Positions 17,682 to 32,051 of a stretch of 64,000 bases of DNA are shown one piece after another (the first letter of the stretch is position 1; every line of letters starts with the position of its first letter). The notes below the pieces were generated by a model. That model did not search any database. It was not told the DNA's origin and was given only the letters and a program-made list of their open reading frames with translations. This stretch comes from Opitutales bacterium (lineage in GTDB: Bacteria > Verrucomicrobiota > Verrucomicrobiia > Opitutales > Opitutaceae): assembly GCA_018700525.1 (NCBI GenBank), contig JABITN010000074.1, forward strand, positions 1 through 64,000, read 5' to 3'. The position numbers and the translations under genes are program-made.

Positions 17682-19034
17682 CTACTTTTTAACCTTCGGT
17701 AGCTCTGAATTCGGGACCGGCATCTCGGCACGCCAAGCAGTATAGAGAGCGTGCAGCGACTTCACTTTTTCGGGATGCCGCTTGGCGAGATCCGTCGCTT
17801 CGGAAGGGTCCTTTTTCAAATCGTAGAGCTCGATGGCTTTCGCGTTTCCCTTCAATTTCCAATCGCCTTTGCGGACAGCCCATCCTTTTTTCGGATCCGC
17901 GGTATCCCAGTATAGGACATCGTGATGCACCTTCGATTTCCCTTCGATCAGGGGAAGGATGCTTTTGCCATCGAAGCCCTTCGCTTCCGGAGGAGACTCG
18001 CCAAGGGCATCCATGACGGTTGGCAATATGTCGAAAGATATTATGGGTATATCGACCACGCTTCCACCTTTGAATCGATCAGGCCAGCTAATCATCCAAG
18101 GGGTACGGATGCCACCTTCGTAGACGCTTTGCTTAAAGTCACGCAGGTGGCCGTTGTCCGCATCCATGGCGGCAGCTCCGCCATTGTCGGTCAGGAAGAA
18201 CAAAAGCGTATTATCCCATAACTTCTCCTGCTTCAGCTTATCGACCACCATCCCAACTCCATCGTCGAGGTGCTTAAGCATCGCCATGAGCGTTGCTCGC
18301 GTTTCCGAGAGATGCGGGAATTTATTTTTGTAGAAATCGATGTCTTCCTGAGGCGCTTGAGCGGGAGTGTGGACAGCGTTATAGGCGAGATAGAGGAAAA
18401 AAGGATTGTCCTTTTCTCTATCGATAAAGGCGACCGCTTCTTCGCTGAGACGAGTGGTAAGGTAACCTTCGTATTCGTCGCCTTCGAGACGCTCCTTATT
18501 GCGGTAGATCGGGGCATAGTCGCCTTTGATGCCTTTTTGTTCGAAATAGTCATGAGCGCCGCGTCCCATGAATTTGAAGGCTTCATCAAAGCCACGATTT
18601 ACGGCGTGCCATTTGAGCTCAGGGAAATCGGCATCGAGCCCAAGGTGCCATTTTCCGATCGCCATGCTCGAGTATTCTTCCGGCAAATACGAAGGGAAAA
18701 TCTTCATATTCGGATCAAACCCATTCCCGCCTTCGCCCGCAGTGTAGATGCCGAGACGTTGTTGGTAGCGTCCAAGCATCAAGCCAGCTCTGGTGGGCGA
18801 GCATACGACACCACTCGTGTAGGCTTGGGAAAAGAACACCCCTTCCTTGGCCAGCCTATCCATATGCGGAGTGGAAACCTCTTTCGCGTGACGCGGGTTG
18901 TAACTAATGTCGGCATAACCCTGATCGTCGGTCATTATTACGACGATATTCGGATTTCGTGCGTTTGTAGACGCGAAAGCCAACGCCATTACGAACGTGG
19001 TGATGAGAGTCGTTAGGTTTATCGATATTTTCAT
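17682..19034 (-). CDS. Family S1 sulfatase
   Basis: Secreted sulfatase. I start it at the ATG at 19034 (MKISINLTTLITTFVMALAF), which gives a proper signal peptide; an upstream in-frame ATG at 19088 adds 18 residues. Metal site VVIMTDDQGYADI. Formylglycine signature C78-S-P-T-R, then AGLMLGRYQQRLGIY. Later blocks are GKWHLGLDADFPE, FFLYLAYNAVHTPAQAP, FFLTDNGGAAAMDADN and the C-terminal LYDLKKDPSEATDLAKRHPEK. The motif pattern is that of arylsulfatases from polysaccharide degraders. It is transcribed divergently from the next sulfatase. Confidence 0.95.
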   Translation of the reverse strand: MKISINLTTLITTFVMALAFASTNARNPNIVVIMTDDQGYADISYNPRHAKEVSTPHMDRLAKEGVFFSQAYTSGVVCSPTRAGLMLGRYQQRLGIYTAGEGGNGFDPNMKIFPSYLPEEYSSMAIGKWHLGLDADFPELKWHAVNRGFDEAFKFMGRGAHDYFEQKGIKGDYAPIYRNKERLEGDEYEGYLTTRLSEEAVAFIDREKDNPFFLYLAYNAVHTPAQAPQEDIDFYKNKFPHLSETRATLMAMLKHLDDGVGMVVDKLKQEKLWDNTLLFFLTDNGGAAAMDADNGHLRDFKQSVYEGGIRTPWMISWPDRFKGGSVVDIPIISFDILPTVMDALGESPPEAKGFDGKSILPLIEGKSKVHHDVLYWDTADPKKGWAVRKGDWKLKGNAKAIELYDLKKDPSEATDLAKRHPEKVKSLHALYTAWRAEMPVPNSELPKVKK

Positions 19035-19542
19035 TTTATCAAATTGAGCTGTAATTGTTTTCTGCACATGATTCCCTGGGTTCCCCACTCGCGATTAGGC
19101 TTCTCGCCGATATTCAGTTTTCGCTTTTAAAAACGTCATCTGTGAAGATCTGAGCAATCTGTGGGCAAAAGTCCGTAGGTTAAGCATTTCATTTGTAATT
19201 TCAAAATAAAGCTGACGCTTTTACTAGGCCATTGATTATTGAGCGACTAGTCACTTATTAGGCAAGGGTTCCAATTGGGATATGTCGATTGGCGGGGTTA
19301 CGTAACGCAATATTTCAAAAAAACGCCTATTGAATCAATCGAGAAAATTGCAACAGGGCCGTTACCCATCTGCTCTTTTCGTCATTTCCCACTTATCAAG
19401 CGCTTCGTGCCTCCCCTGCATCAACCGAAGAAATAGCCTCAACCAGGATAAAAAGCCACGATAGAAGATCGCTCTCGGCTTGCACGACACGGTGGAAGCG
19501 CACAGCCCTATAGCTAACCTGTTCGACAATCTACAGCACCTC
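19035..19542. other. Divergent intergenic region between two sulfatases
   Basis: About 508 bases with no supported gene, holding the promoters of two divergent sulfatase genes. It contains a short palindrome GTTACGTAAC near 19300 and AT-rich tracts. No convincing operator could be singled out. Confidence 0.5.
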
Positions 19543-21198
19543 ATGAACCAACTCTCCAAATTTCTCCTCATTGTCTCTGCCCTGCTGGCCTTCGCAGCCA
19601 ACTTTACCCAAGCCAAGCGACCGAACATCATCCTCATTCTGACAGACGATCAGGACAAGGATTCAATCGGCGCCTACGGCGGCGATGTCTGGACGCCGAA
19701 CCTAGATCGCATGGCTGAAGAAGGCATGCTTTTCCACAACGGATTCGTTACCAGCACCGTCTGCACCCCTTCGCGCTACGCCTTTCTGACGGGCCGCTAC
19801 CCAAGCCGCTCCTCCTCGGAGATCTTTCTCGAAGAAAACCCCGAGGGCCAACAAGCCTTCCCCTCATTCAACATGGGCCTAGAGCCCGACAACATGAATG
19901 TCGCCGCCATGCTTTCAAAGGCTGGCTACCGCACGGGCTTCGTTGGGAAATACCACGCGAGCGGAGTTGAGGGTCTAAGAAAGCCATCCGATTACGAGGC
20001 CCACGGCCTGAAGTACATAGCGAAAGATGCGAAAGCCTCAGACGAAATGAACGAAGCATTTCGCTTCAACGAACTACAGTATCGCAAGATGCTAACGGGT
20101 AGGGGATTCGACTGGGCCAAGAATATCTACATGGGAAACCTCCAGAAACCCTATAACCAACACAACCTGGAATGGACCGTAGATGCCGCTCTCGAGTTCA
20201 TCGAAGACAGCGTCGGCTCCGGAAAGGCCGAAAAGCCCTTCTATCTCCATTTTTGCACTACACTCGTACATGGACCGGACGGCTCTTGGAGTCGTTCAAT
20301 AGCTGAACCGCTCGTATCGGGATCCGGCGTCCTCGAATCGTCTATTGTCCCTGAAGGGATGCTATCTCGAAAGGAGATCCTAAACGAGCTGAATCAACGC
20401 AATCTCGACCCGGCCAAAGGCCACGCAGGTTATTCCTGGATCGATTCGGGCGTCGGAGCCATCCTAGCAAAGCTCAAGAAACTAGGTATCGACGACAATA
20501 CGCTCGTCATCTTCACCGCCGATCATGGTTCCCGCCTCAAAGGCTCCCTTTACGATATCGACGGTGCCAGCGTACCGTTTATCATGCGCTGGCCAGGCAA
20601 GGTGAAAGCCGACGTCGAAAGCTCCGAACTCGTACAAAGCATTGATATCGTCGCCACCGCCTTCGGCCTCGGCGAAGTTACGCTTCCGAAACAGTACGTT
20701 CTCGACGGACGCAGCATGGCCCCGCTATTTGGCGGCAAACCATCCGATTCCTGGAGAGATTATCTTTATCTAGAGCTAGGATTTAGCCGTGCCATCCGAA
20801 CCCAGGAATTCAAATACATAGCGACACGGTATCCCGAGGAGCACCTGATAGAAATCCGAAACGGCGACCCTGCAAAGCTGCCAGCCCTACTTTCCCCCAT
20901 CAACCGAGCTGGCATCGGAACGCGCGGATCGGCGAATCCAAACTTCTACTACGACGATGCGCTTTTCCGAATCGAGAAAGACCAACGCGAGATGAAGAAC
21001 CTTGTGAACGATCCCGAATACTCAGTCGCGCTAAAGGAAATGAAACAGCTCCTAATCAAAACGATTGAAACGACCGACCGTCCCTACGGCGAACTAGTCC
21101 CCGGAGGCAACGCCACCGCGCCCAGACAAGCCGTCGAACAACAGGAGCTCACAAGAAGAATGAAAATTCAGGGCAAGAGAGTCACCCTCCCTAACTAA
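19543..21198 (+). CDS. Family S1 sulfatase
   Basis: Secreted sulfatase of 551 aa from ATG 19543 (MNQLSKFLLIVSALLAFAAN, a signal peptide); an in-frame ATG at 19480 adds 21 non-signal residues. Metal site LILTDDQDKDSIGAYGG. Formylglycine signature C74-T-P-S-R, then YAFLTGRYPSRS. Later blocks are VGKYHASGVEGL, FCTTLVHGPDGSW and FTADHGSRLKGSLYDIDGASVPF, with His in the DHG metal site instead of the commoner DNG. The substrate pocket differs from the other sulfatases here (longer insertion near 150-230), so it may act on a different linkage. Confidence 0.94.
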   Translation: MNQLSKFLLIVSALLAFAANFTQAKRPNIILILTDDQDKDSIGAYGGDVWTPNLDRMAEEGMLFHNGFVTSTVCTPSRYAFLTGRYPSRSSSEIFLEENPEGQQAFPSFNMGLEPDNMNVAAMLSKAGYRTGFVGKYHASGVEGLRKPSDYEAHGLKYIAKDAKASDEMNEAFRFNELQYRKMLTGRGFDWAKNIYMGNLQKPYNQHNLEWTVDAALEFIEDSVGSGKAEKPFYLHFCTTLVHGPDGSWSRSIAEPLVSGSGVLESSIVPEGMLSRKEILNELNQRNLDPAKGHAGYSWIDSGVGAILAKLKKLGIDDNTLVIFTADHGSRLKGSLYDIDGASVPFIMRWPGKVKADVESSELVQSIDIVATAFGLGEVTLPKQYVLDGRSMAPLFGGKPSDSWRDYLYLELGFSRAIRTQEFKYIATRYPEEHLIEIRNGDPAKLPALLSPINRAGIGTRGSANPNFYYDDALFRIEKDQREMKNLVNDPEYSVALKEMKQLLIKTIETTDRPYGELVPGGNATAPRQAVEQQELTRRMKIQGKRVTLPN

Positions 21199-21231
21199 TG
21201 TATTCCTTTGACCGAGATTCCATCCAACCGC

Positions 21232-21255
21232 AGGGCTGGCGCTTGCGCCAGCCCT
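21232..21255. repeat. Short palindromic element after sulfatase
   Basis: AGGGCTGGCGC, TT, GCGCCAGCCCT: an 11-base perfect inverted repeat 33 bases after the sulfatase stop. No T tract follows, so it resembles a REP-like unit more than a terminator. A second hairpin, AACACAC/GTGTGTT, lies at 21266-21285. Confidence 0.55.
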
Positions 21256-21377
21256 AAGAACGCACAACACACACATCCGTGTGTTAAAACTCAAGAAATC
21301 GATTCGTCGTCGATTGATCGCTTGCCAGTAAGCCCTCTCCCTACAATCTTCGAAAAGCCAACACCTCACGCCCCCAT

Positions 21378-21398
21378 TTCATAATTCATAATTCATAA
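21378..21398 (+). repeat. Tandem TTCATAA x3
   Basis: Three copies of the 7-base unit TTCATAA lie directly upstream of the GMC oxidoreductase start at 21407. Slippage in such an AT-rich repeat could alter promoter or ribosome-binding spacing. That effect is inferred. Confidence 0.5.
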
Positions 21399-21406
21399 TT
21401 TTTCCC

Positions 21407-23209
21407 ATGCCCCATATCAACGCAGGTAAAACCAAGCCGGAATACGATGTCATCATCGTCGGTTCCGGAGCCGCTGGCGGACAGACCGCCTACACGCTCG
21501 CAATGGAAGGCGTCAAAGTCCTTATGCTCGAAGCCGGACGCGACTACGATCCCGTTAAAGAAACCCCCATGTTTCAGACACGCCAGCAAGCTCCCTTGCG
21601 CGACGCGTCTACACCAGAAAAAGCATTCGGCTTCTACGATGCGACTGTAGATGGTGGCTGGAAGGTTCCTCACGAACCGTACACCAACGCCTCCGAAAAG
21701 TCCGAAGAGCAGTTTTGGTGGTGGCGAGCCCGGATGCTCGGCGGACGCACCAATCACTGGGGGCGCATTTCCCTTCGAAACGGCGATTACGATTTCAAAG
21801 GCAAGAGCCGCGACGGCGTCGGTATCGATTGGCCGCTCGGTTACCAAGACGTCGCTCCTTACTACGACCGAGTCGAATCGCTCATCGGCGTTTACGGCAG
21901 CAACGAAGGTCTCGAAAACACCCCCAACTCTCCGGACGGCGTTCTTCAGCCAGCCCCCAAAGCCCGAGCCAGCGAGATCTACACGCGCAAGCACGCCAAG
22001 AAACTCGGTATCCCCGTCATCCCCATCCATCGCGCCGTTCTCAGCAAGCGTCTCGATTCGAAGAACATCCCCAAGCGCCTCCACCCCAACAATCCTAAGG
22101 CCGCCAAAATCCTCTCTCAAGAGATGGATCAACGCCTCGCTTGCTTCTGGGCAACTCCCTGCGGACGCGGTTGCTCGATCAAAGCGAACTACCAATCGAC
22201 CACCGTCCATCTCCCACCAGCCCTCGCGACCGGCAATCTGGATATCATCACCAACGCCATGGCTCGCAAAATCGAAATCGACGAGACGGGCAAAGCTACT
22301 GGCGTCAACTTCGTCGACAAGCGCACCGGTCGGGACTACTCAGTCAAAGGACGCATCATCACGCTCGCCGCCGGTTCATGCGAATCAGTCCGTATTCTCC
22401 TCAACTCGAAGAGCCCAATCCATCCCGATGGCCTCGCCAATTCCTCCGGAAAAGTTGGCAAGTATATTATGGATACGGTCGGAGCCGGGCTAGGCGGTCA
22501 AATCCCTGCGTGGGAAAACATGCCGCCTCACAACGAAGACGGAGCGGGCGGCAGTCATTCCTACGTTCCCTGGTGGCTATACAAGGAACAGCTCGCCGGT
22601 AAGCTTGATTTTCCGCGAGGCTATCATATCGAAATGGGAGGTAGTCGCGGTACACCAAGAGTAGGCACTTTCAACGGACTCGAAAAATTTACCGGCGGAA
22701 GCTACGGCAAACAGCTCAAAGAAGACGCCCGTCGTTACTACGGCTCGTTCATGAGTTACGCCGGACGTGGCGAAATGGTCCCCAACGATGATTGCTTCAC
22801 CGAAATCGACAATCGAGTTAAAGACAAATGGGGCATTCCCGTTTTGAAATTCCATTGGAAGTGGAGCGACTACGAAATTCGTCAGGCCGCTCACATGCAC
22901 AAGACCTTTGCCGAACTGATCACCGAAATGGGTGGGGCAGTTACGAGCGAGATCGATACGACCGGCAAGAAAGCCATTCTTCCAGGCGGTATGATCATTC
23001 ACGAAGTTGGCGGCACCATTATGGGCGAAAATGCCAAGTCATCCGTAACCAACCAATACAACCAAACCTGGGATGTGAAAAACCTCTTCATCACCGACGG
23101 TGGCCCCTTCTGTTCTAACGCCGACAAAAACCCGACGCTCACCATCATGGCTCTCGCTTGGCGATCCGCCGACTACATGATAGATGCCATGAAAAAAGGA
23201 GATCTTTAA
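21407..23209 (+). CDS. GMC family FAD-dependent oxidoreductase
   Basis: A glucose-methanol-choline oxidoreductase of 600 aa, close to the membrane-bound gluconate/sorbitol-type dehydrogenase flavoproteins. The FAD-binding motif VIIVGSGAAGGQTAYTLA is at residues 15-32, with the acidic end of beta2 in MLEAGRDY. RMLGGRTNHWGR is the second FAD loop. The C-terminal catalytic region holds IIHEVGGTIMGE and NLFITDGGPFCSNADKNPTL. There is no signal peptide. The next gene, one base after the stop, encodes a gluconate-2-dehydrogenase subunit-3-like protein with a Tat-like signal, so the pair probably forms an exported sugar or polyol dehydrogenase by hitch-hiking export. No cytochrome subunit is adjacent. 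Confidence 0.92.
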   Translation: MPHINAGKTKPEYDVIIVGSGAAGGQTAYTLAMEGVKVLMLEAGRDYDPVKETPMFQTRQQAPLRDASTPEKAFGFYDATVDGGWKVPHEPYTNASEKSEEQFWWWRARMLGGRTNHWGRISLRNGDYDFKGKSRDGVGIDWPLGYQDVAPYYDRVESLIGVYGSNEGLENTPNSPDGVLQPAPKARASEIYTRKHAKKLGIPVIPIHRAVLSKRLDSKNIPKRLHPNNPKAAKILSQEMDQRLACFWATPCGRGCSIKANYQSTTVHLPPALATGNLDIITNAMARKIEIDETGKATGVNFVDKRTGRDYSVKGRIITLAAGSCESVRILLNSKSPIHPDGLANSSGKVGKYIMDTVGAGLGGQIPAWENMPPHNEDGAGGSHSYVPWWLYKEQLAGKLDFPRGYHIEMGGSRGTPRVGTFNGLEKFTGGSYGKQLKEDARRYYGSFMSYAGRGEMVPNDDCFTEIDNRVKDKWGIPVLKFHWKWSDYEIRQAAHMHKTFAELITEMGGAVTSEIDTTGKKAILPGGMIIHEVGGTIMGENAKSSVTNQYNQTWDVKNLFITDGGPFCSNADKNPTLTIMALAWRSADYMIDAMKKGDL

Positions 23210-23210
23210 G

Positions 23211-23867
23211 ATGAACAATTCAAACGATCCAAAACGTCTAGATCGTCGGGTAGCCATTAAATGGATACTATTCGCATCCGCGAGCGTGCCCTTTCTCAAC
23301 TCAAACAGCTTCGGCCAGTCTGGTCCCTCTATTCCCACTCCCAGAGGTTACGGGTCCGATCCGAACCTCCTCATACCGGAGGCCGCTCCTTGGGAACGCA
23401 TCCTGACTCCTGAACAGTTTAAGACAACCACCACACTCGCCGACATCATTCTACCGGCCAACGGCGAATCGCCTAGCGCCAGCGGGCTGAATGTCCCCGA
23501 CTTCATCGACGAGTGGATCAGCGCCCCTTATCCGGCCCAGGAGAAAGACCGCAAAACAATTCTCGAAGGAATCGACTGGATCAACGCCGAGTCGCACTAC
23601 CGTTTTGGTAAAGCCTTTCACGATCTCGATTCCAGCCAACAGAAAACGATCTGCGACGACATTTGCTACCAGCCGAAAGCGAAAACGGAACACCTAGCCG
23701 GAGCCACGTTCTTCGCCACGTTCCGTAATCTCACTATGGGCGGCTACTACACGACTGATCACGGCACCCGAGAAGTCGGCTACGTCGGCAATGTGGCACT
23801 CGCCTCCTTCGATGGTCCGCCACCCGAGGTCCTCAAACACCTTGGCCTCGAAAAGCATCCTTGGTAG
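23211..23867 (+). CDS. Gluconate 2-dehydrogenase subunit 3 family protein
   Basis: Small partner subunit of 218 aa. The N-terminus KRLDRRVAIKWILFASASVPFL looks like a Tat signal. The body has LTPEQFKTTTTLADIILPANGESPSASGLNVPDFIDEWI and the late FATFRNLTMGGYYTTDHGTREVGYVGN, both typical of the Gluconate_2-dh3 family. It begins one base after the GMC stop. It likely carries the flavoprotein across the membrane and docks it. A bidirectional terminator follows. Confidence 0.88.
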   Translation: MNNSNDPKRLDRRVAIKWILFASASVPFLNSNSFGQSGPSIPTPRGYGSDPNLLIPEAAPWERILTPEQFKTTTTLADIILPANGESPSASGLNVPDFIDEWISAPYPAQEKDRKTILEGIDWINAESHYRFGKAFHDLDSSQQKTICDDICYQPKAKTEHLAGATFFATFRNLTMGGYYTTDHGTREVGYVGNVALASFDGPPPEVLKHLGLEKHPW

Positions 23868-24061
23868 TTTTTCCCTAATACGGAAATAGCCCTTCGAGCG
23901 TCTATGTTTCCAACATCCTATTCGGCATGATCAAAACCCTGTCTAATCTTCGCTAAGTCGCCGACATGGCAAGAATAGAACTGCCCAAATATTTCCGCGA
24001 AATCTCGGAGACTCGAGCAACCCGTCGATTAGCCGAAACTACGTAAGCATTTTGAAAACCC

Positions 24062-24095
24062 AAAAGAGGGCCCAAGCGGTCCTCTATTTTATAAT
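24062..24095. terminator. Bidirectional terminator between convergent genes
   Basis: AGAGGGCC, loop CAAGC, GGTCCTCT (one G-T pair), flanked by ATTTTATA on the right and, read on the minus strand, TTTTGGGTTTT on the other side. It lies between the subunit-3 gene (+) and the methyltransferase (-). Confidence 0.7.
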
Positions 24096-24104
24096 AGCAT
24101 ACCC

Positions 24105-25040
24105 CTACCCGACCGTATAATGAATCGTATCATCATCCACCGCGAGCCTTAGCTCCAAGCTGCGTTCTTCGAAGGGATGGCGGTCTAGAGCAAAGTGAGT
24201 TTTAACTACATCTCCTTTTTTCACGTCGCGTGGTGGAAACATAAAATGCGTTTGTCCCCAATGCGTTGGAACGCAGTCAGGCCCTGTATCCAAAGTTATC
24301 TCGGGTGAAAGATCAGACACGAACCAACCGACGAACCCGTCCATTTTACCGTCTTCTTCGATTACGAATTCAAGATCCCCGCTTCGCCAAGGATCGTCTT
24401 TCTTCACCGTTTTCAGATCAAACGCCATCAACGATTCTCCCCGCGACAGTAATGCATCTACGGGTACAACTGATTTCCCCGCAATCGCTTGTTTAAGCTC
24501 CATCGCCTCCAAGGGCGCATAGTCGATCCCACGAACCGGAAAACTCCAAAACCCCGGCCCGGTCTCTCCGTAGATCCAAGGAACGCTAATCGGCGCCATA
24601 AATAGCTCAATACTAGATGGCATCATCTTTCCATCGGGTTTCAAATTCCTATCCCGGGCCAGGATCACATCATCTAACATCATTTCCACAAAGCCAAAGT
24701 GCCCCAACCACTCGCTCACCAACAAATCAACTTTCTCAGGAAGCTCAAAATTCTTCGCGTTGCCTTTGGTGATTTGCACCTTGTCCGACAATCCGTTATG
24801 TTCGACTAGCTTGGTCGCAAGCGCTACCACCGATGCTTGGTCGATTCCATAGACCTTCTTCGCCCCGGCCTTCGCCGCCAACATAGCAAGCAATCCTGTG
24901 CCCGTACCTACATCGAGAACGGTGTCCCCGTCCTTCACTACCTCGGCAATCGCATCGGCAAACGCATCCGTCCGCACCTGGTCTGAAACCATTGCCCGCT
25001 GAAGCGTCAAATCCCCATAGGAATCGAAATAAAAATCCAT
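24105..25040 (-). CDS. Protein arginine methyltransferase (PRMT)-like SAM methyltransferase
   Basis: A 311-aa methyltransferase whose whole core matches eukaryotic PRMTs. FYFDSYGDLTLQRAMVSDQVRT (residues 3-24) is motif YFDSY with Arg23 in the place of the PRMT1 SAM-contact arginine. LDVGTGTGLLAMLAAKAGAKKV is motif I and post-I. The double-E loop S-E110-W-L-G-H-F-G-F-V-E119 has both catalytic glutamates at the correct spacing, followed by LDDVILARDRNLKPDGKMMPS. The THW loop is at 259-261 (CVPTHWGQTHF). PRMT folds are common in eukaryotes and rare in bacteria. The usual PRMT dimerisation arm appears shortened. A protein substrate is inferred; a small-molecule substrate is possible. No RNA-binding or Zn domain is attached. 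Confidence 0.85.
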   Translation of the reverse strand: MDFYFDSYGDLTLQRAMVSDQVRTDAFADAIAEVVKDGDTVLDVGTGTGLLAMLAAKAGAKKVYGIDQASVVALATKLVEHNGLSDKVQITKGNAKNFELPEKVDLLVSEWLGHFGFVEMMLDDVILARDRNLKPDGKMMPSSIELFMAPISVPWIYGETGPGFWSFPVRGIDYAPLEAMELKQAIAGKSVVPVDALLSRGESLMAFDLKTVKKDDPWRSGDLEFVIEEDGKMDGFVGWFVSDLSPEITLDTGPDCVPTHWGQTHFMFPPRDVKKGDVVKTHFALDRHPFEERSLELRLAVDDDTIHYTVG

Positions 25041-25161
25041 CTACCCCGACTGATCGCTCAAGCCTGACTGAGCAATCAAAAAACGCCGGTGCGATGTCAT
25101 ACATGGAGGTGATCGGTTTAGGTGATCCGCGTGATACTATTTTATTAACAAGACACGCCCA

Positions 25162-25554
25162 TCACCCCAAGTCCGTAAATCCTTCAGGCGCCTCGTCCGT
25201 AAAATAGACATCCCGATCTGGGCGAGAACCTGGACAATGTAAATCGAGCATCACCAAAGCAGCCTCTCCCGTCTCGAATCGATGCCGCGTCCCAGGTGGC
25301 AAACGTAGAAAATCCCCGACCTCGAGGCGATACTCTTGATCATCCAATACCGCCAATCCCGAACCCTCGATCACGTAATAACATTCTTCCGCAATCTTGT
25401 GATAACTCTCGTTTGTCCTTTGCTCTGGCTCGATGCGCACGCGATAAGCAGTAAGTGCTCCCTCCTCCGTTGGCGAAACCAACGATTCGATTTGATACGG
25501 ACCCAATTCCCGAACTTCCCCGTCACCTGACTGCTTACTATGCAGAATTTTCAT
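25162..25554 (-). CDS. Cupin domain protein
   Basis: A single-domain cupin of 130 aa. The metal-binding motifs are EECYYVIEGSGLAVLDDQEYRLEVGDFLRLPPGTRH. It has no signal peptide. Single-domain cupins of this type act as sugar isomerases/epimerases or small dioxygenase-like proteins. The substrate is unknown. It lies 121 bases upstream of the PRMT gene on the same strand, so co-transcription is possible. Confidence 0.8.
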   Translation of the reverse strand: MKILHSKQSGDGEVRELGPYQIESLVSPTEEGALTAYRVRIEPEQRTNESYHKIAEECYYVIEGSGLAVLDDQEYRLEVGDFLRLPPGTRHRFETGEAALVMLDLHCPGSRPDRDVYFTDEAPEGFTDLG

Positions 25555-25622
25555 GAGAATCGTGATACGGCGATCACATCAATCACTCAAGGCTCATGTC
25601 AGAGACTTCGGAATGAGTAGGT

Positions 25623-25702
25623 GTAAGAGCGGGTTTACCCCGCGATTGTGTTGATGCCCTTAAGATGGAAATGAGGAATCACGAGATAAACCCGCCCCTA
25701 TC
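25623..25702. repeat. Palindromic repeat family, copy 1
   Basis: An inverted repeat with core GCGGGTTTACCCCGCGATT on the left and its diverged complement on the right (ending ...ATAAACCCGCC). The right arm forms the last codons of the minus-strand gene at 25660. A better-preserved copy lies at 30475-30554. Confidence 0.55.
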
Positions 25703-26151
25703 AATTGACTCTCCAAGGCCATTCTCGAATAAATCCTCCCTTCCCACTCGTCGATATCCGCGCTGTCCGGCATATTCCCAGGAAACGTAAGGTACCTACA
25801 TTCCTCGTCTAAAACGAACCCGACCGGAGGCGTTTTCATCCCATTGGGAATCACCATCATCGAGCTCGCCCAACCACCCTTAGCCGTTCGAACCTGGATA
25901 GAAGTATAGTCTACATACTGCGGATCGAACCGTCGAACAAGCGTAAAATCGGATTCCGGGTCTTCGCCGATCACTAATCCATTCCACTTCCCCTCTCGCA
26001 CTGCCCGCTCCCCTAGCGATGCCTTCTGTATCTCAATTCCAATGACATCTTCAAGCTTCATGATCGGCGAATTCTCGGAACTCAAGGCAACCGGCAAAAC
26101 GCCAACAACCAAGATCAATGAACCTACTAATATTCGATCGAACAATGACAT
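25660..26151 (-). CDS. Exported protein of unknown function
   Basis: A 163-aa protein with a signal peptide (ILVGSLILVVGVLPVALSSE). The mature part is soluble, with no recognised domain. The segment MMVIPNGMKTPPVGFVLDEECRYLTFPG suggests a lipocalin-like or small beta protein, but this is only an impression. The last ~15 residues are encoded by the palindromic repeat at 25623-25702, so the native C-terminus was probably altered by that element. Confidence 0.6.
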   Translation of the reverse strand: MSLFDRILVGSLILVVGVLPVALSSENSPIMKLEDVIGIEIQKASLGERAVREGKWNGLVIGEDPESDFTLVRRFDPQYVDYTSIQVRTAKGGWASSMMVIPNGMKTPPVGFVLDEECRYLTFPGNMPDSADIDEWEGRIYSRMALESQLIGAGLSRDSSFPS

Positions 26152-26244
26152 AATTGAGAAGGAGTGTCACTTAGCACGCTCCACGATACCCATGGCAGCA
26201 GGGCATTGAACTAGCCAGACCAAATTCGAAATATCGAACGCACC

Positions 26245-27150
26245 CTAAACGCCGGCCTTCGACTCAATTCGACTCATCGCGAAAAGCGATCCAAGTAGGA
26301 TCGCTCCACCAACGACGATACCCATGCCAATCGACTCGGATTCCAAAAACACCGAGGATTCGATGACCCCGCACAAGGGAATCATAAATCGAAACGCCGA
26401 CAACACATTCACGCTGTAACGCTCAATCAATCGATTCCAAATAGTGAACGCAGTCGCCGACAAAATCGCCAGATAAACAGTCACTCCCAGTGTCACCCAA
26501 TTATAATCCTTCGAAAACGCTTCCCACTCAAAAGTGCCTACTACGACAAGCATCGCACCTCCTAAAAACAAAGACAGCGCCGTAATCGAACGACTTCCGA
26601 AACGAGGCGCTACCCGTTTCATGCCGATTGCCCCGAAAGCTCCCATCAAGGTCGACATCAAAAAAGCGATCGTCCCCTGGAAAACATCGCCGCTACCCGC
26701 GCCCGGCGCGTACACCGCTATTGAAATGCCTATCGTGCAGGCCGCCAAGGCCGCCCACTGTTTCCCCGATGGAAACGCTGATTTCAAAAACACCGGCGCC
26801 AACAATACCCACCACAAACTACCCGAACCAACCAACAACGCTCCCAGTGTTCCGCTCGAAACCCGCAGAGCGTAGTAGAAGAATACATACTGCCCAAAAG
26901 TCTGCCCGAGCGTGACCCACATTAAAGCCCCTTTGGGAACCTCACGGAAAACAGAAATTACACTTCGCCTGCAAAACAGCATGACCAGCAAACCCGCCAG
27001 CATGAACCGTGTGCCCGCAAACAACAATTGCTCCCCATAGCTCTCCAAAGCCAAATGAGCGAAACTCAGCTTGATAACCGGAAACGCACTGCCCCATAAC
27101 CCAGCACAAAGCAGGATTTGAAGGTAGAAACTGAGAGGAAGCTTTTTCAC
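26245..27150 (-). CDS. EamA/DMT family transporter
   Basis: A drug/metabolite-transporter superfamily protein of 301 aa with about ten membrane helices in two EamA repeats. The first repeat begins LQILLCAGLWGSAFPVIKLSF and contains GQTFGQYVFFYYALRVSSGTLGALLVGS. The second begins near GTIAFLMSTLMGAFGAIGMKR and ends AFRFMIPLCGVIESSVFLES. The substrate is unknown. It lies between the exported protein and the two SDR genes; all are on the minus strand and may share a sugar-uptake role. Confidence 0.88.
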   Translation of the reverse strand: MKKLPLSFYLQILLCAGLWGSAFPVIKLSFAHLALESYGEQLLFAGTRFMLAGLLVMLFCRRSVISVFREVPKGALMWVTLGQTFGQYVFFYYALRVSSGTLGALLVGSGSLWWVLLAPVFLKSAFPSGKQWAALAACTIGISIAVYAPGAGSGDVFQGTIAFLMSTLMGAFGAIGMKRVAPRFGSRSITALSLFLGGAMLVVVGTFEWEAFSKDYNWVTLGVTVYLAILSATAFTIWNRLIERYSVNVLSAFRFMIPLCGVIESSVFLESESIGMGIVVGGAILLGSLFAMSRIESKAGV

Positions 27151-27234
27151 AAAGATGCAATCGTTCAGTTAATCATAAGGAAATGACCGCTCGGAGATCG
27201 GCCGCGGCCTGTTGAAAAACAATATCGTGTATTC

Positions 27235-27996
27235 TTACCTCAACTGCACAACGCCACCATCGATATCGTAAGCCGCTCCCGTAATAAACGAAGCCTCGTC
27301 ACTGCATAGAAACGCCGCCAACGCTGCAACCTCTTCCGGTTTGCCCATGCGACCCAAAGGCTGATACTCCGAAAGCTTTTCGAACATTTCCGCTTTTGTA
27401 TCCGGATAGTTCTTATCTAAATAATTGTCGACGAACGGCGTATGCACGCGAGCGGGACACAGACAGTTGCAGCGAATTCCTTTATCCACGTAATCCCGAG
27501 CCACCGAAAGCGTCATAGCGAAAGCCGCTCCCTTGCTCATCGAATAAGCGAACCGATCCTGGATACCCAGCTTGCTGGCGATAGACGCCAAATTGAGCAC
27601 AACGCCTCCGCCTTGCTCCCTCATACCAGGAATCGCAGCATGCAAACAGTGATACAGACCCTTTACGTTTACTGTATAGATATTGTCCATCTCTTCCGGC
27701 GTGGCGACTTCCACATTCCCGATCGCGGCAATCCCTGCATTGTTCACCAAAATATCAATACGCCCAACAGCTTTCACCGCAGCTCTAACGCTATCGAGCA
27801 ATGCAACATCTACTTCGAAACATTCAGCCGAACCACCAGCTTCCTTGATCCTTTCGACGACACTTCCGCCGCTTTCCATATCTCGTTCGAATACCGCGAC
27901 ATGAGCCCCTTCCGAGGCGAAGCGAAGCCCAATCGCTTCCCCAATCCCAGAACCCGCACCCGTAACAACAGCTGTCTTATTTACTAACCTTTTCAT
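27235..27996 (-). CDS. SDR oxidoreductase, possible 2-keto-3-deoxy-L-fuconate dehydrogenase
   Basis: A short-chain dehydrogenase of 253 aa. NAD-binding motif TGAGSGIGEAIG, LVNNAGIAA, catalytic Ser in LNLASIASK, and YSMSKGA with Tyr and Lys. The C-terminal region YLDKNYPDTKAEMFEKLSEYQPLGRMGKPEEVAALAAFLCSDEASFITG resembles the SDRs described for oxidation of 2-keto-3-deoxy-L-fuconate. It starts 12 bases after an SDR like L-fucose dehydrogenase, which supports an oxidative L-fucose route. The substrate assignment is by pattern only. Confidence 0.8.
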   Translation of the reverse strand: MKRLVNKTAVVTGAGSGIGEAIGLRFASEGAHVAVFERDMESGGSVVERIKEAGGSAECFEVDVALLDSVRAAVKAVGRIDILVNNAGIAAIGNVEVATPEEMDNIYTVNVKGLYHCLHAAIPGMREQGGGVVLNLASIASKLGIQDRFAYSMSKGAAFAMTLSVARDYVDKGIRCNCLCPARVHTPFVDNYLDKNYPDTKAEMFEKLSEYQPLGRMGKPEEVAALAAFLCSDEASFITGAAYDIDGGVVQLR

Positions 27997-28008
27997 AATA
28001 AAATTCTC

Positions 28009-28794
28009 TTATTGGTGAGTACAACGGCGATCGAAATGCGTGTAACCACCATCTACATACAAAATTTGTCCAGTCGTGTGCGACGAAAGCGACGAGGCTA
28101 CGAAAACCACCGTGTCCGCAATTTCCCGAGACGTGGTCATTCGACTTTCAAGCGGGATCGAATCGCAGATCGCCTTCAACTCTGCCTCCGAATCAGGCTG
28201 CCGTTTTATCCAACGCTTATACAACGGCGTCATCACCTCAGCAGGAATCACGCAATTCGAACGGATTCCAAATTTGGCAAGGTCCAATGCCCATTCGCGA
28301 GTGAGTCCATTCATACCCCCCTTCGATGCCGCGTATCCAGAAGTTCCACCTTGGCCCGTTTCCGCCACCTTAGATCCAATATTCACTATATTTCCGCGGC
28401 TAGCCTTCAACGCTCCCAAACAATGGTGCACCAAGGAATAACACTGAGTCAGGTTCTTTTCCAAAGATTCGCGAAACGCAGCTACCCCTGTTTCTAGATC
28501 CACGCCATCGTTCACGCCCGCATTATTCACCACAATGTCAATACGTCCAAATTCTTCGAGCGTCTGAGCTACTGCATCCTTGACGTTCTCTTCGTTCGTC
28601 ATTTCCGCAAAACGAAAGGCTGCCTTGCCTCCTGCGCTTTTCAGCTCGTCTACGAAGGCTTTACCCTCCTCGCGATTGCGTCCGAAAACAACCGCTATCG
28701 CACCCTCATCGACAAACGATCGCGTAATACCTTCGCCGATCCCCTTGTTTCCGCCGGTAACAATAACAACCTTATCGTTAAGTTTTAAATCCAT
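28009..28794 (-). CDS. SDR oxidoreductase, L-fucose dehydrogenase-like
   Basis: A short-chain dehydrogenase of 261 aa. Motifs are TGGNKGIGEGI, NNAGVND, VNIGSKVAETGQGGTSGYAASKGG (catalytic Ser-Tyr-Lys) and LTREWALDLAKFGIRSNCVIPAEVMTPLY. The late part IPLESRMTTSREIADTVVFVASSLSSHTTGQILYVDGGYTHFDR is what I recall for L-fucose dehydrogenases. It is followed at once by a KDF-dehydrogenase-like SDR. Lactonase, dehydratase and aldolase genes of the pathway are not in the window. The SDR call is firm; the substrate is moderate. Confidence 0.82.
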   Translation of the reverse strand: MDLKLNDKVVIVTGGNKGIGEGITRSFVDEGAIAVVFGRNREEGKAFVDELKSAGGKAAFRFAEMTNEENVKDAVAQTLEEFGRIDIVVNNAGVNDGVDLETGVAAFRESLEKNLTQCYSLVHHCLGALKASRGNIVNIGSKVAETGQGGTSGYAASKGGMNGLTREWALDLAKFGIRSNCVIPAEVMTPLYKRWIKRQPDSEAELKAICDSIPLESRMTTSREIADTVVFVASSLSSHTTGQILYVDGGYTHFDRRCTHQ

Positions 28795-29005
28795 AAAATA
28801 CCCTTATCAATCGTCTATTAAAATCAAGCAAACCTTTATCAATCCAATTTAATCAAACAATAAACCTAGCAAGCTGCTGGGAATCAATCAAGCGAACCAA
28901 GGTAATCAAAGGGTAGCTGCCGCTACCATCACTAGCAACGAACCACACGGCACGGTGCAAGCGCTGGACCTACGAGCTTCAAATAAACGAACTCCCCAAA
29001 GAAAA

Positions 29006-30388
29006 TCAATTCCCAGGAAAGGGGGTCTCCATTAACGCATTGCGACCGGCTTCCGTGTCCAAGGCTGCTCCCCGGTCATGCTGCTCCTTCATCCATTTAA
29101 GCAATTCCCCGCGCAGGTGCTGCTTAACGGATACATATTCAGGATTATCCGACAAGTTATTCGTCTCATAATTATCGATACCCAATCGATAAAGCTCTTC
29201 CTCCGGTCGTTGAACATACTTAGCCGCTAGAGCCTTCGCTCGCTTGTCGCCAGCCTGAGCAGCTTTCTCCAGCTCGACCCACCACACGAGTCTCGAATTC
29301 TCGACCATAATATGCTTTTCATGGTACTTCGCTTCAGGCTTCAAATTCCACAAATAGTGAAATTGTCCGTCGTTGATCGACCGGATCGGATAGGGCTCTC
29401 CCTCCGGTATATTGTTATGAAGCCCGTACACGAACTTTCTATGTCCTTCCGTTCGACCCTCTAGCACCGAAAGAAAACTCTTCCCATCCAAGTCGTAGCC
29501 ACCCACCTCGCCACCAGCGGCATCTATAAATGTCGGCACGACATCCGCCATCTGAATCAAGGCATCCGTCTTGGATCCCGCTTCAACATGCCCCGGCCAG
29601 CGAGCGACAAACGCAGTATGCACGCCCATATTCCAATTGGACCATTTAGAAAACCCTAGTGCCCATCCTTGCTCCGACGAGAAAACAACCAAGGTATTAT
29701 CCGCCTTCCCCGATTTCTCCAACACCTCCAAGGTCCTTCCGACCTGTGCGTCCAAAGCCGCAACTTCCGCATAATAGCGGGTCATAACCTCGCGCGTCTT
29801 CGGATTGTCATGCTGGGTCGGCGATAACGTTATCGCCTCCGCATCGAATTGCGACGCATCGCCTTCCGTCCAAGCTGCATGGGCATTCTGGGAGCAAACG
29901 AACAAACAGAACGGCTCCTCTCCATCCTGTCCCATAAAACGCTCCATTCCTTTCCAATTCAATCGTTGGCTCTTGACCGCCCCATCGCTCAACAACTCGA
30001 ATGGAAACGTCTTTGCAGGCGAAGCATGCTTCTTGCCCGTCAATCCCACTCGATAGCCGAGATCGCCCAAATAGTGGCAGACACTTTTCGTGCCAGGTCG
30101 AGCCGAAGAGTGGTTCGACGCAACGCCATTGCGAACTGGATACAAGCCCGTATAGAGCTCTGCCCGAAACGGAGCGCACATCGCCACCGCGCTATAGGCC
30201 TGATTGAACTGAATGCCTTGCGAGGCCAATCGATCGATATGCGGCGTTGCTACATTCTCCCCGCCATAACAACCAATCGAATCGTAGTTCACATCGTCCG
30301 CCAAAATAAATACGATATTCGGCTTTTGCGAAAACGCTAAGCTAGACAAAATTAAAACAACGGGGATACATAACCAGATCTCTCTCAT
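29006..30388 (-). CDS. Family S1 sulfatase with C-A-P-F-R signature
   Basis: Secreted sulfatase of about 460 aa from ATG 30388 (MREIWLCIPVVLILSSLAFS); an upstream in-frame ATG at 30421 adds 11 residues. Metal site FILADDVNYDSIGCYGG. The formylglycine signature is C71-A-P-F-R followed by AELYTGLYPVRNG: the core CxPxR needed by formylglycine-generating enzyme is kept, but the usual Ser/Thr is Phe. Later blocks are GKKHASPAKTFPFE, FVCSQNAHAAW, VVFSSEQGWALGFSKWSNW (SEQG in place of SDNG) and MEDIUM-length tail. It belongs to a distinct sulfatase subfamily. Activity is likely but less certain than for its neighbours. Confidence 0.9.
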   Translation of the reverse strand: MREIWLCIPVVLILSSLAFSQKPNIVFILADDVNYDSIGCYGGENVATPHIDRLASQGIQFNQAYSAVAMCAPFRAELYTGLYPVRNGVASNHSSARPGTKSVCHYLGDLGYRVGLTGKKHASPAKTFPFELLSDGAVKSQRLNWKGMERFMGQDGEEPFCLFVCSQNAHAAWTEGDASQFDAEAITLSPTQHDNPKTREVMTRYYAEVAALDAQVGRTLEVLEKSGKADNTLVVFSSEQGWALGFSKWSNWNMGVHTAFVARWPGHVEAGSKTDALIQMADVVPTFIDAAGGEVGGYDLDGKSFLSVLEGRTEGHRKFVYGLHNNIPEGEPYPIRSINDGQFHYLWNLKPEAKYHEKHIMVENSRLVWWVELEKAAQAGDKRAKALAAKYVQRPEEELYRLGIDNYETNNLSDNPEYVSVKQHLRGELLKWMKEQHDRGAALDTEAGRNALMETPFPGN

Positions 30389-30474
30389 TGAAAAAGTATC
30401 ATCCACAATTCCCCAAACCAATCAATCCATTATCCATCGATAGAAATTTCTCGTAATAGTCTCTTCATTAATCT

Positions 30475-30554
30475 GTAGGATCGGGTTTACCCCGCGATAG
30501 CATAGGCTTGAATGGGTTACGATATGATTGATCGCGGGATTAACCCGATCCTAC
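30475..30554. repeat. Palindromic repeat family, copy 2
   Basis: Arms of 24 bases at 30475-30498 (starting GTAGGATCGGGTTTACCCCG) and 30531-30554 pair at 22 of 24 positions around a 32-base centre. The left arm is nearly the same as that of the copy at 25623. It lies between two minus-strand sulfatase genes. The size and structure suit a non-autonomous palindromic element. Confidence 0.65.
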
Positions 30555-30578
30555 ATCTAATATCAACGTAAACCCTCA

Positions 30579-32051
30579 CTATCGATCATTCAACCGACTC
30601 TTAAACCACTCTCTCGCTTGGCGATGACTCGGCGAAGACGCTAGATTCGTCGATTCTTCAGGGTCAAGCTCATAGTCGTACAATTCCCGAGCGACGACTT
30701 TTCCTTTTCTTTCTCCCTTATAGAAATCTTTCTGGATCCATTCGACGTAGCGATAGCGTTCCGACCGATACGCATAGCCCATCAGGTGTTTTCCTTCATG
30801 CTTTCTTGGATACTGGCTGCGAGCGAACTCCCTAACACTCGATTTCGAGCCATCCATCAATGGTGCCAACGACACGCCATCTAAGTCCGATGGCGTCGGC
30901 AGCCCCGCAAGGGAACATAATGTTGGAAAGATATCGAGGAACTCCGTTGGCGAATCCGTCTTCACTCCCTCCGGCATCCCTGGAGCGGAAATAATCAGCG
31001 GGGCCCGCGTTGCCTGCTCGTAATTGGTATGTTTGCAAAAGATCCCGTGGTCGCCGAGATGGAAACCATGGTCGCCCCACAAAACGATGATTGTATTGTC
31101 GACGACTCCCGCCGTATCGACAGCATCGAGCATTCGACCGACTTGAGCATCCACAAACGCCACCGTCGCATAGTATCCATGAATCAACTCCAACTGCTTC
31201 TCGTCGGGAATCGGCCCCTTCAAAGGAATATCCGTATAACCATTACGCAGCTCGCCTGAATTATGAAAGCTAAACATCGGACTCTCCGACGAGACATCCC
31301 GGTAGTCAGGCAACGCAAAATCACTCCGCTCCCAAAGGTCCCAATACCGCTTCGGGGCGTTAAATGGCAAATGCGGCCGCGAAAATCCAAGTCCAAGAAA
31401 AAACGGATCGCCCGCCTTAACCCGATTCTCTAATTCCGCGATCGCCTGGCTGCATGAATGATAGTCTTTGTAAACCATATCCGGAACGTCCGCATTTTCA
31501 GTCGAAGGCCGCTTGAGCGTATCACGCTTATCCAAAGGAACCCGTCCGCTACTGTAGCTCTCGTTCGCGTACATCGACCCAGAGCCAGTTAACATGTAAG
31601 GCCGACTCCAAGAGATCGCGTCCTGCTTTCCCCAACTATCCACGCACCGCCCATCGAAGAGCTTTCCAACGCCAATAGTATAATAGCCATTTTGCTTAAA
31701 ATGCTGCGGCAACGTGAAAATGTCCGGATTTCGATCCCGCATCTTCGTATTGAGATCCCAAACCTGCGTACGATCCGGCAACCAACCCGTCAGCAAACTC
31801 GCCCGAGTCGGGCCGCACACCGCTTGCTGACAATGGTTGTTCGAAAAGACCATCCCCCTCGAAGCCAAACGATCCATATTCGGAGTCTTCGCCATCCGAT
31901 CGCCGAAACAACCCAGCGCTGGCTTCAAATCATCCAAGGCAATGAATACGACATTCGGACGAGCAGCGCCGCAGAATCCGGTCATCGACGCTCCCAGAGT
32001 CATCAAAAAGAGCGACGCCATCCAGCGCCTAGAGTATCGCAGGGTTTTCAT
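30579..32051 (-). CDS. Family S1 sulfatase, iduronate-2-sulfatase-like
   Basis: Secreted sulfatase of 490 aa. The signal peptide ends near GFCGAA. Metal site FIALDDLKPALGCFGD. Formylglycine signature C79-G-P-T-R, then ASLLTGWLPDRTQVWDL. QHFKQNGYYTIGVGKLF, FFLGLGFSRPHLPFNAPKRYWDLW and LWGDHGFHLGDHG are hallmarks of the iduronate-2-sulfatase-like group, which also acts on other uronate or fucose sulfates in marine bacteria. The C-terminus has LYDYELDPEESTNLA. It is probably upstream of the sulfatase at 29006 in the same orientation, separated by a palindromic repeat. Confidence 0.94.
   Translation of the reverse strand: MKTLRYSRRWMASLFLMTLGASMTGFCGAARPNVVFIALDDLKPALGCFGDRMAKTPNMDRLASRGMVFSNNHCQQAVCGPTRASLLTGWLPDRTQVWDLNTKMRDRNPDIFTLPQHFKQNGYYTIGVGKLFDGRCVDSWGKQDAISWSRPYMLTGSGSMYANESYSSGRVPLDKRDTLKRPSTENADVPDMVYKDYHSCSQAIAELENRVKAGDPFFLGLGFSRPHLPFNAPKRYWDLWERSDFALPDYRDVSSESPMFSFHNSGELRNGYTDIPLKGPIPDEKQLELIHGYYATVAFVDAQVGRMLDAVDTAGVVDNTIIVLWGDHGFHLGDHGIFCKHTNYEQATRAPLIISAPGMPEGVKTDSPTEFLDIFPTLCSLAGLPTPSDLDGVSLAPLMDGSKSSVREFARSQYPRKHEGKHLMGYAYRSERYRYVEWIQKDFYKGERKGKVVARELYDYELDPEESTNLASSPSHRQAREWFKSRLNDR

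Follow-up and report, generated by a model that had tools for sequence, protein, structure and literature searches.

Does a bacterium of the phylum Verrucomicrobiota carry a genuine protein arginine methyltransferase (PRMT) and, if so, which proteins might it modify and where did it come from? Protein arginine methylation has been studied almost wholly in eukaryotes, and the question is raised by a gene, P0001, located at positions 24105-25040 of a 64,000-nucleotide stretch of DNA from an Opitutales bacterium of the family Opitutaceae (contig JABITN010000074.1, positions 1 to 64,000), hereafter the window. An earlier note, made from the letters alone, had proposed the gene as a bacterial PRMT with both catalytic loops complete. 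We find here that P0001 belongs by sequence to the PRMT family, and that it is probably a stand-alone, dimeric, type I-like protein arginine N-methyltransferase. Its homology, its fold apart from the dimerisation arm, its complete active site, the purifying selection acting on it, and the existence of a paralogue with the same active site are directly supported. Beyond this, we infer that the protein would be active, would yield asymmetric dimethylarginine, would dimerise, and would act in trans on cellular proteins.

P0001 is not the first bacterial PRMT to be predicted, since two such proteins, with their function listed as unknown, were predicted earlier in Legionella (PMC10117894). What they share with P0001 is the standing of a PRMT predicted in a bacterium. 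Among the part of the matches considered from full-text literature searches, no title or abstract opening dealt with a PRMT of Verrucomicrobiota or with the arginine methylation of bacterial RRM proteins.

Family assignment

P0001 is read on the minus strand, a point left unstated in the earlier note, as an intact open frame of 311 codons that runs from 25040 to 24105, fills this interval exactly, and encodes a protein of 311 amino acids (aa). The plus-strand frame over the same interval is interrupted by stops which, together with a full-length match to yeast Hmt1 and the purifying selection on the gene, rules out a chance or spurious frame. In a phmmer search against the PDB, of which the best 60 of 83 matches were considered, the top match is Hmt1 (E-value 2.1e-47, residues 2-299), followed by PRMT1, PRMT2, PRMT3, PRMT6, PRMT8, and CARM1, with PRMT7 and PRMT9 being weaker. 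These matches are PRMTs and not the small-molecule methyltransferases that the earlier note had named as the contrary outcome. The Pfam domain PRMT_C (PF22528), corresponding to the oligomerisation or beta-barrel domain, covers residues 157-299 (24144-24572, minus strand) and scores 61.5 bits, where 27 would suffice to reach its cut-off.

The Rossmann half of P0001 also matches generic methyltransferase models in Pfam, and none of the best 25 of 52 NCBIfam matches exceeds its own cut-off, so that public annotation of this gene would probably read just as a generic methyltransferase. The NCBIfam model prmA scores 40.2 bits, below its cut-off of 183.15, and PrmA and the others cover the Rossmann half only. 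An identity as PrmA, or as any generic class I or small-molecule methyltransferase, was rejected because the best full-length matches are PRMTs, whereas these rivals reach only the Rossmann half.

An alternative is that P0001 keeps the PRMT fold but now modifies a small molecule or a peptide natural product, such as free arginine, a guanidine compound, or the precursor of a ribosomally synthesized and post-translationally modified peptide (RiPP). A RiPP methyltransferase and a 2-ketoarginine methyltransferase do appear among the distant NCBIfam matches, the genes upstream of P0001 include those for a cupin and a DMT-type transporter, and an extra N-terminal region is seen in L037 and L038, which are further PRMT-like proteins from this phylum. 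However, those NCBIfam matches fall far below cut-off and within the Rossmann half, the scanned neighbours do not look like a biosynthetic cluster and vary between orthologues, and P0001 has the complete barrel and THW loop, as protein-methylating enzymes do. We regard such a change of substrate as unlikely.

The gene is under purifying selection. Against its nearest relative (L005), the nonsynonymous divergence (dN) is 0.069 and the synonymous divergence (dS) about 2.1, which is near saturation, with a dN/dS of about 0.03; the corresponding values are a dN of 0.26 and a dS of 1.5 against L006, and a dN of 0.41 with saturated dS against L007.

Active site and predicted product

All of the motifs claimed in the earlier note were found at the residues given there, namely YFDSY at 4-8, R23, GTGTG at 45-49, E110, E119, and THW at 259-261. 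On the minus strand of the window, the YFxxY motif lies at 25017-25031 and aligns with the YFDSY of PRMT1; motif I, VLDVGTGTG (residues 41-49), predicted to bind S-adenosylmethionine (SAM), at 24894-24920; the double-E loop SEWLGHFGFVEMM (residues 109-121) at 24678-24716; and the THW loop THWGQ (residues 259-263), aligned opposite YTHWKQ, at 24252-24266. Besides motif I, the Rossmann domain has post-I as VYGID (63-67), motif II as VDLL (104-107), and motif III as LKPDGKMMP (133-141).

In the alignment to PRMT1 and Hmt1, Y4, F5, Y8, M17, R23, D43, G45, and G47 of P0001 correspond to Y35, F36, Y39, M48, R54, D76, G78, and G80 of PRMT1, and G49, D67, E110, E119, M121, T259, H260, and W261 to G82, E100, E144, E153, M155, T292, H293, and W294; apart from M48, M155, E144, E153, and H293, these are what we take to be the PRMT1 site numbers. 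The two glutamates aligned to E144 and E153 are nine residues apart, and D67 stands, as in Hmt1, opposite E100 of one PRMT1 (8z2z). The distance from E119 to the THW loop is 140 residues, compared with 139 in PRMT1 and 141 in Hmt1. The 16 checked positions are identical in all eight sequences of the 311-aa class to which P0001 belongs, the second copy of its own genome included.

The six PRMT motifs plus YFxxY listed in PMC12925635 can all be placed in P0001. It departs from that list at motif II, which reads LL instead of II, and at two positions of the double-E loop, where L112 replaces M and G116 replaces L. Like Hmt1 and PRMT1, P0001 has the whole 300-residue core, the six motifs with YFxxY, the catalytic and product-specificity residues, and the spacing from glutamate to THW. 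The differences are an identity to these enzymes of about 33-35%, the residues L112 and G116, a position in the tree away from the eukaryotic type I sequences, and a bacterial host whose genome gave no match to the archaeal-type histone family PF00808.

According to PMC8619983, M48 and M155 of PRMT1 set asymmetric dimethylation and E144 and E153 form the double-E pair; the role of H293 is described there too. The presence of equivalents to M48, R54, E144, E153, M155, H293, and W294, together with the YFxxY motif, points to P0001 being a type I enzyme. In the mechanism that we propose, SAM would be held by the Rossmann domain through motif I, D67, and R23, the guanidinium group of the target arginine would be held by E110 and E119, and the pocket would be closed by H260 and W261, with M17 and M121 favouring asymmetric dimethylation.

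Predicted structure

An AlphaFold model of P0001 was built from seven sequences, three of them distant ones from viral contigs, and reached a predicted local distance difference test score (pLDDT) of 69.8 and a predicted template modelling score of 0.73, with residues 1-11, 112-116, and 153-199 below pLDDT 50; a four-sequence alignment had given a pLDDT of 44.4. All 50 listed matches of this model, both in Foldseek (best E-value 5.8e-27) and in VIA-align, are PRMTs. The best VIA-align match is the plant PRMT10 structure 3r0q, with a Z-score of 28.6 and a root-mean-square deviation (rmsd) of 2.2 over 262 aligned residues, spanning residues 10-311. The overall rmsd of the Foldseek superpositions is large, about 9-12, probably due to the poorly modelled dimerisation arm.

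The earlier note had expected a beta-barrel and a dimerisation arm, and these two expectations fared differently. The barrel is supported by strands modelled between residues 202 and 310, by PF22528 exceeding its cut-off, and by PRMT crystal structures as top matches. The arm fits by length and by a sequence alignment with few gaps; its model, over residues 153-199, stays below pLDDT 50. We consider P0001 likely to be an active protein arginine methyltransferase, whatever its target may be, with the poorly modelled arm counting against this.

Second copy and distribution

Searching its own genome with P0001 returned four matches. One is P0001, two are pieces of a second copy that lie at contig ends, and the fourth, a weak one, is to the Rossmann half. 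The second paralogue is split between the end of one contig (L003, G000:C210) and the start of another (L002, G000:C207), with an exact overlap of 141 bases, and once joined encodes 311 aa with 52.4% identity to P0001 and 77.5% to the copy of genome G002. The existence of two paralogues, 52% identical, brings in the idea that P0001 is inactive or dependent on a partner, with one copy serving as a regulatory partner, or prozyme, for its sister in the manner of PRMT1/PRMT3 of trypanosomes; Trypanosoma brucei has a PRMT complex of this enzyme-prozyme kind (6dnz; PMC12925635). However, the six other genomes with the 311-aa class have a single copy each, and such an arrangement appears very improbable.

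The near relatives of P0001 are found in Opitutaceae bacterium ANT-100 (87% identity), Opitutales bacterium OFTM265 (65%), and Puniceicoccaceae bacterium K14 (54%), all of them Verrucomicrobiota of the class Opitutia, which places the genome of the window there as well. The 311-aa class, taken at an identity of at least 50%, is present in 7 of 57 relatives, the own genome counted, and in 5 of the 11 genomes of the genus. A longer PRMT-like class of 342-402 aa occurs in 11 of the 57 (E-values of 6e-39 to 1e-30), and neither class is found together with the other in any genome; many of these draft genomes are incomplete, so that the absence of a class may be a gap. The earlier statement that PRMTs are uncommon in bacteria agrees with what was found in Verrucomicrobiota, the phylum surveyed: PRMT_C matched 12 of 387 sampled genomes at an E-value of 0.001, nine of them over cut-off, and none of 14 control genomes at that threshold. 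P0001 used as a query at 1e-12 matched 20 of the 387, with other PRMT classes also being picked up.

In the longer class of the family (L014-L024, L031-L036), all 17 sequences share with P0001 both glutamates and the equivalents of M48, M155, H293, and W294. The class differs from P0001 in that its double-E loop reads HEQMG, its THW loop has become PHW, YFxxY is lacking, and the N-terminus is extended; one of its members, L014, is 30.5% identical to P0001. Two proteins from other families of the phylum, L029 and L030, resemble P0001 in their short single core, THW, and double-E loop, and differ in having a leucine at the M155 position; in the tree they are the nearest to the eukaryotic sequences, with weak support (80/80), and among solved structures L030 matches PRMT6 best. 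Other families of Verrucomicrobiota also encode tandem proteins of about 690 aa resembling PRMT9 and PRMT7 (L039:463-2526, L040:520-2595), whose second module groups with PRMT9 (100/98), keeps both glutamates, and has an alanine at the THW histidine.

Outside the bacterial chromosomes, P0001 has no relative among 50,697 phage records at 1e-5 and no match in IMG/VR when used as the query. A 13-sequence alignment (A2) searched against IMG/VR picked up four viral contigs, on which the Rossmann half shows a distant similarity. The PRMT-like Rossmann halves on L139, L140, and L142, IMG/VR contigs classed as viral, are divergent, have loops such as SETV, and resemble PRMT7/9; no Pfam PRMT domain at 0.001 and no PHROG at 1e-5 was found in them. 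Among 72,556 plasmid records there is a single match (27% identity), whose protein fits PRMT5_C instead. This is a 253-aa hypothetical protein of the conjugative plasmid NZ_OP378668.1 (L063:3938-4699), encoded beside mer and transfer genes, which fits PF17286, the oligomerisation domain of PRMT5, and in its annotated form has no Rossmann domain. A phage or plasmid origin of P0001 was rejected, given the lack of phage or IMG/VR matches to it and the nature of the lone plasmid match.

Evolutionary origin

That Hmt1 is the best solved match of P0001, and that the class is patchily present (5/11 genomes of the genus, 7/57 relatives), would fit this bacterium having recently taken up a PRMT1/Hmt1 gene from a eukaryote. 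However, the identity of P0001 to Hmt1 (34.8%) is not above that to plant PRMT10 (36.2%), with PRMT2 at 34.6% and PRMT6 at 33.8%. In a tree of 30 sequences with six eukaryotic type I sequences, CARM1, PRMT3, PRMT5, PRMT7, and PRMT8 being left out, the 311-aa class forms one clade (100/98) and the six eukaryotic sequences group separately (87/88). Forcing the class together with the three PRMT1/Hmt1 sequences is 16 log units worse, a mild rejection by the approximately unbiased test (p-AU 0.036). Since the class branches outside the six sampled sequences, a recent capture of a PRMT1-type gene is unlikely, and we would give it little credence.

The deep forks of this tree are weak, with 7 of 27 inner branches open, and the constraint joining the 311-aa class to all six type I sequences costs 2.5 log units and withstands the test (p-AU 0.27). 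A more ancient exchange with a stem eukaryote, in either direction, may link the class to the type I stem.

Candidate targets

Hmt1 and PRMT1 have substrates of the heterogeneous nuclear ribonucleoprotein (hnRNP) type. Two RRM proteins were found in the genome (L057, G000:C163:44984-45193, minus strand; L058, G000:C129:33840-34052, plus strand), both ending in RGG-rich tails with YRGG or FRGG, one of which ends NYRGGGGGGNYRGGGGGGNYRGGR. Because of their likeness to hnRNP-type substrates, these candidates may be the likeliest targets of P0001, a proposal by analogy that we consider possible but which leans towards the doubtful side. A histone target was rejected, as no match to the archaeal-type histone family PF00808 was found in the genome.

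The tails were counted by coordinates at 77 of 77 RRM loci in 57 genomes, 51 of which have at least one RRM protein; one counted tail (L076) runs off its contig. Within the family, (Y/F)RGG tails are present in 7/7 genomes with the 311-aa class, 6/19 with neither class, and 1/11 with the longer class, and the six tailed genomes with neither class all belong to the genus of the window. Counts of RGG and of (Y/F)RGG do not differ between genomes with the longer class and those with neither (p 0.25 and 0.20). Co-occurrence is confounded by kinship and was rejected as proof of a substrate, leaving the RRM-RGG tails as a lead and no more.

A fuller reading would be that, in Verrucomicrobiota, the two type I paralogues place asymmetric dimethyl marks on the RGG tails carried by RRM proteins, as a bacterial counterpart of hnRNP methylation that tunes RNA binding or condensate formation, and that their lineage diverged before the type I enzymes of eukaryotes radiated. 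Several observations weaken the link between the enzyme and these tails. The 311-aa class is missing from 6 of the 11 genomes of the genus, all six of which keep RGG-tailed RRM proteins. Among the 20 genomes that belong to the order but not to the family, three (G038, G039, G056) have (Y/F)RGG tails without that class. The family-level difference (p 0.0004 for (Y/F)RGG, p 0.003 for RGG counts) ignores kinship, and within the genus, with five genomes against six, it is not significant (p 0.07 and p 0.10, respectively). With CGN codons only, RGG-repeat DNA patterns in the genome are not above reversed controls (4 vs 4; 13 vs 18). In favour of the link, of 13 matches to the (Y/F)RGGG DNA pattern in the genome, seven are in frame (frames of at least 60 residues), three of these within the two RRM tails; those outside the tails are single occurrences, one being in L159, a frame of 72 residues that is rich in Gly and Arg and doubtful as a real gene. 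We put forward this fuller reading tentatively, as one more likely to fail than to hold.

Gene neighbourhood

Upstream of P0001 lie the cupin gene, the DMT-type transporter gene, and a gene piece without a Pfam match, and on its other side a GMC oxidoreductase and a gluconate 2-dehydrogenase subunit 3, with sulfatases and dehydrogenases farther out. A 163-aa frame at 25660-26151 (minus strand) looks like a shortened remnant; it matches, at 74% identity, a portion of the 466-aa protein encoded near the PRMT gene in genome G003 (L043:2446-3846). Four sulfatase genes, starting at 17682, 19480, 29006, and 30579, fall within 15 kb (17682-32051), and sulfatase clusters are usual for polysaccharide-degrading Verrucomicrobiota.

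Eight neighbourhoods of the 311-aa class, of 7-20 kb each, were compared. Sulfatases aside, flanking genes are common only to G002 and G010, and to the window and G003 (DMT gene, 90%; gene piece, 74%), so that a conserved operon was rejected, with no neighbour kept beyond near relatives. In other genera, the orthologues are flanked by unrelated genes, which suggests that P0001 would act in trans.

An exported enzyme acting on the proteins of a eukaryotic host or prey would have a precedent in the secreted bacterial arginine methyltransferase Rv1988, as reported in PMC10117894. However, P0001 begins at the YFxxY region, which would leave no room for an N-terminal signal, and its scanned neighbours are not secretion genes. 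We consider export extremely improbable.

Significance

The interest of P0001 lies in its complete active site, its duplication, its patchy presence in close relatives, and the two obvious candidate substrates. With apparently complete type I enzymes, relatives without them, and two RGG-tailed candidates, this group would offer a small system to study how bacteria may use this mark, and it bears on whether the PRMT core predates eukaryotes or was handed over.
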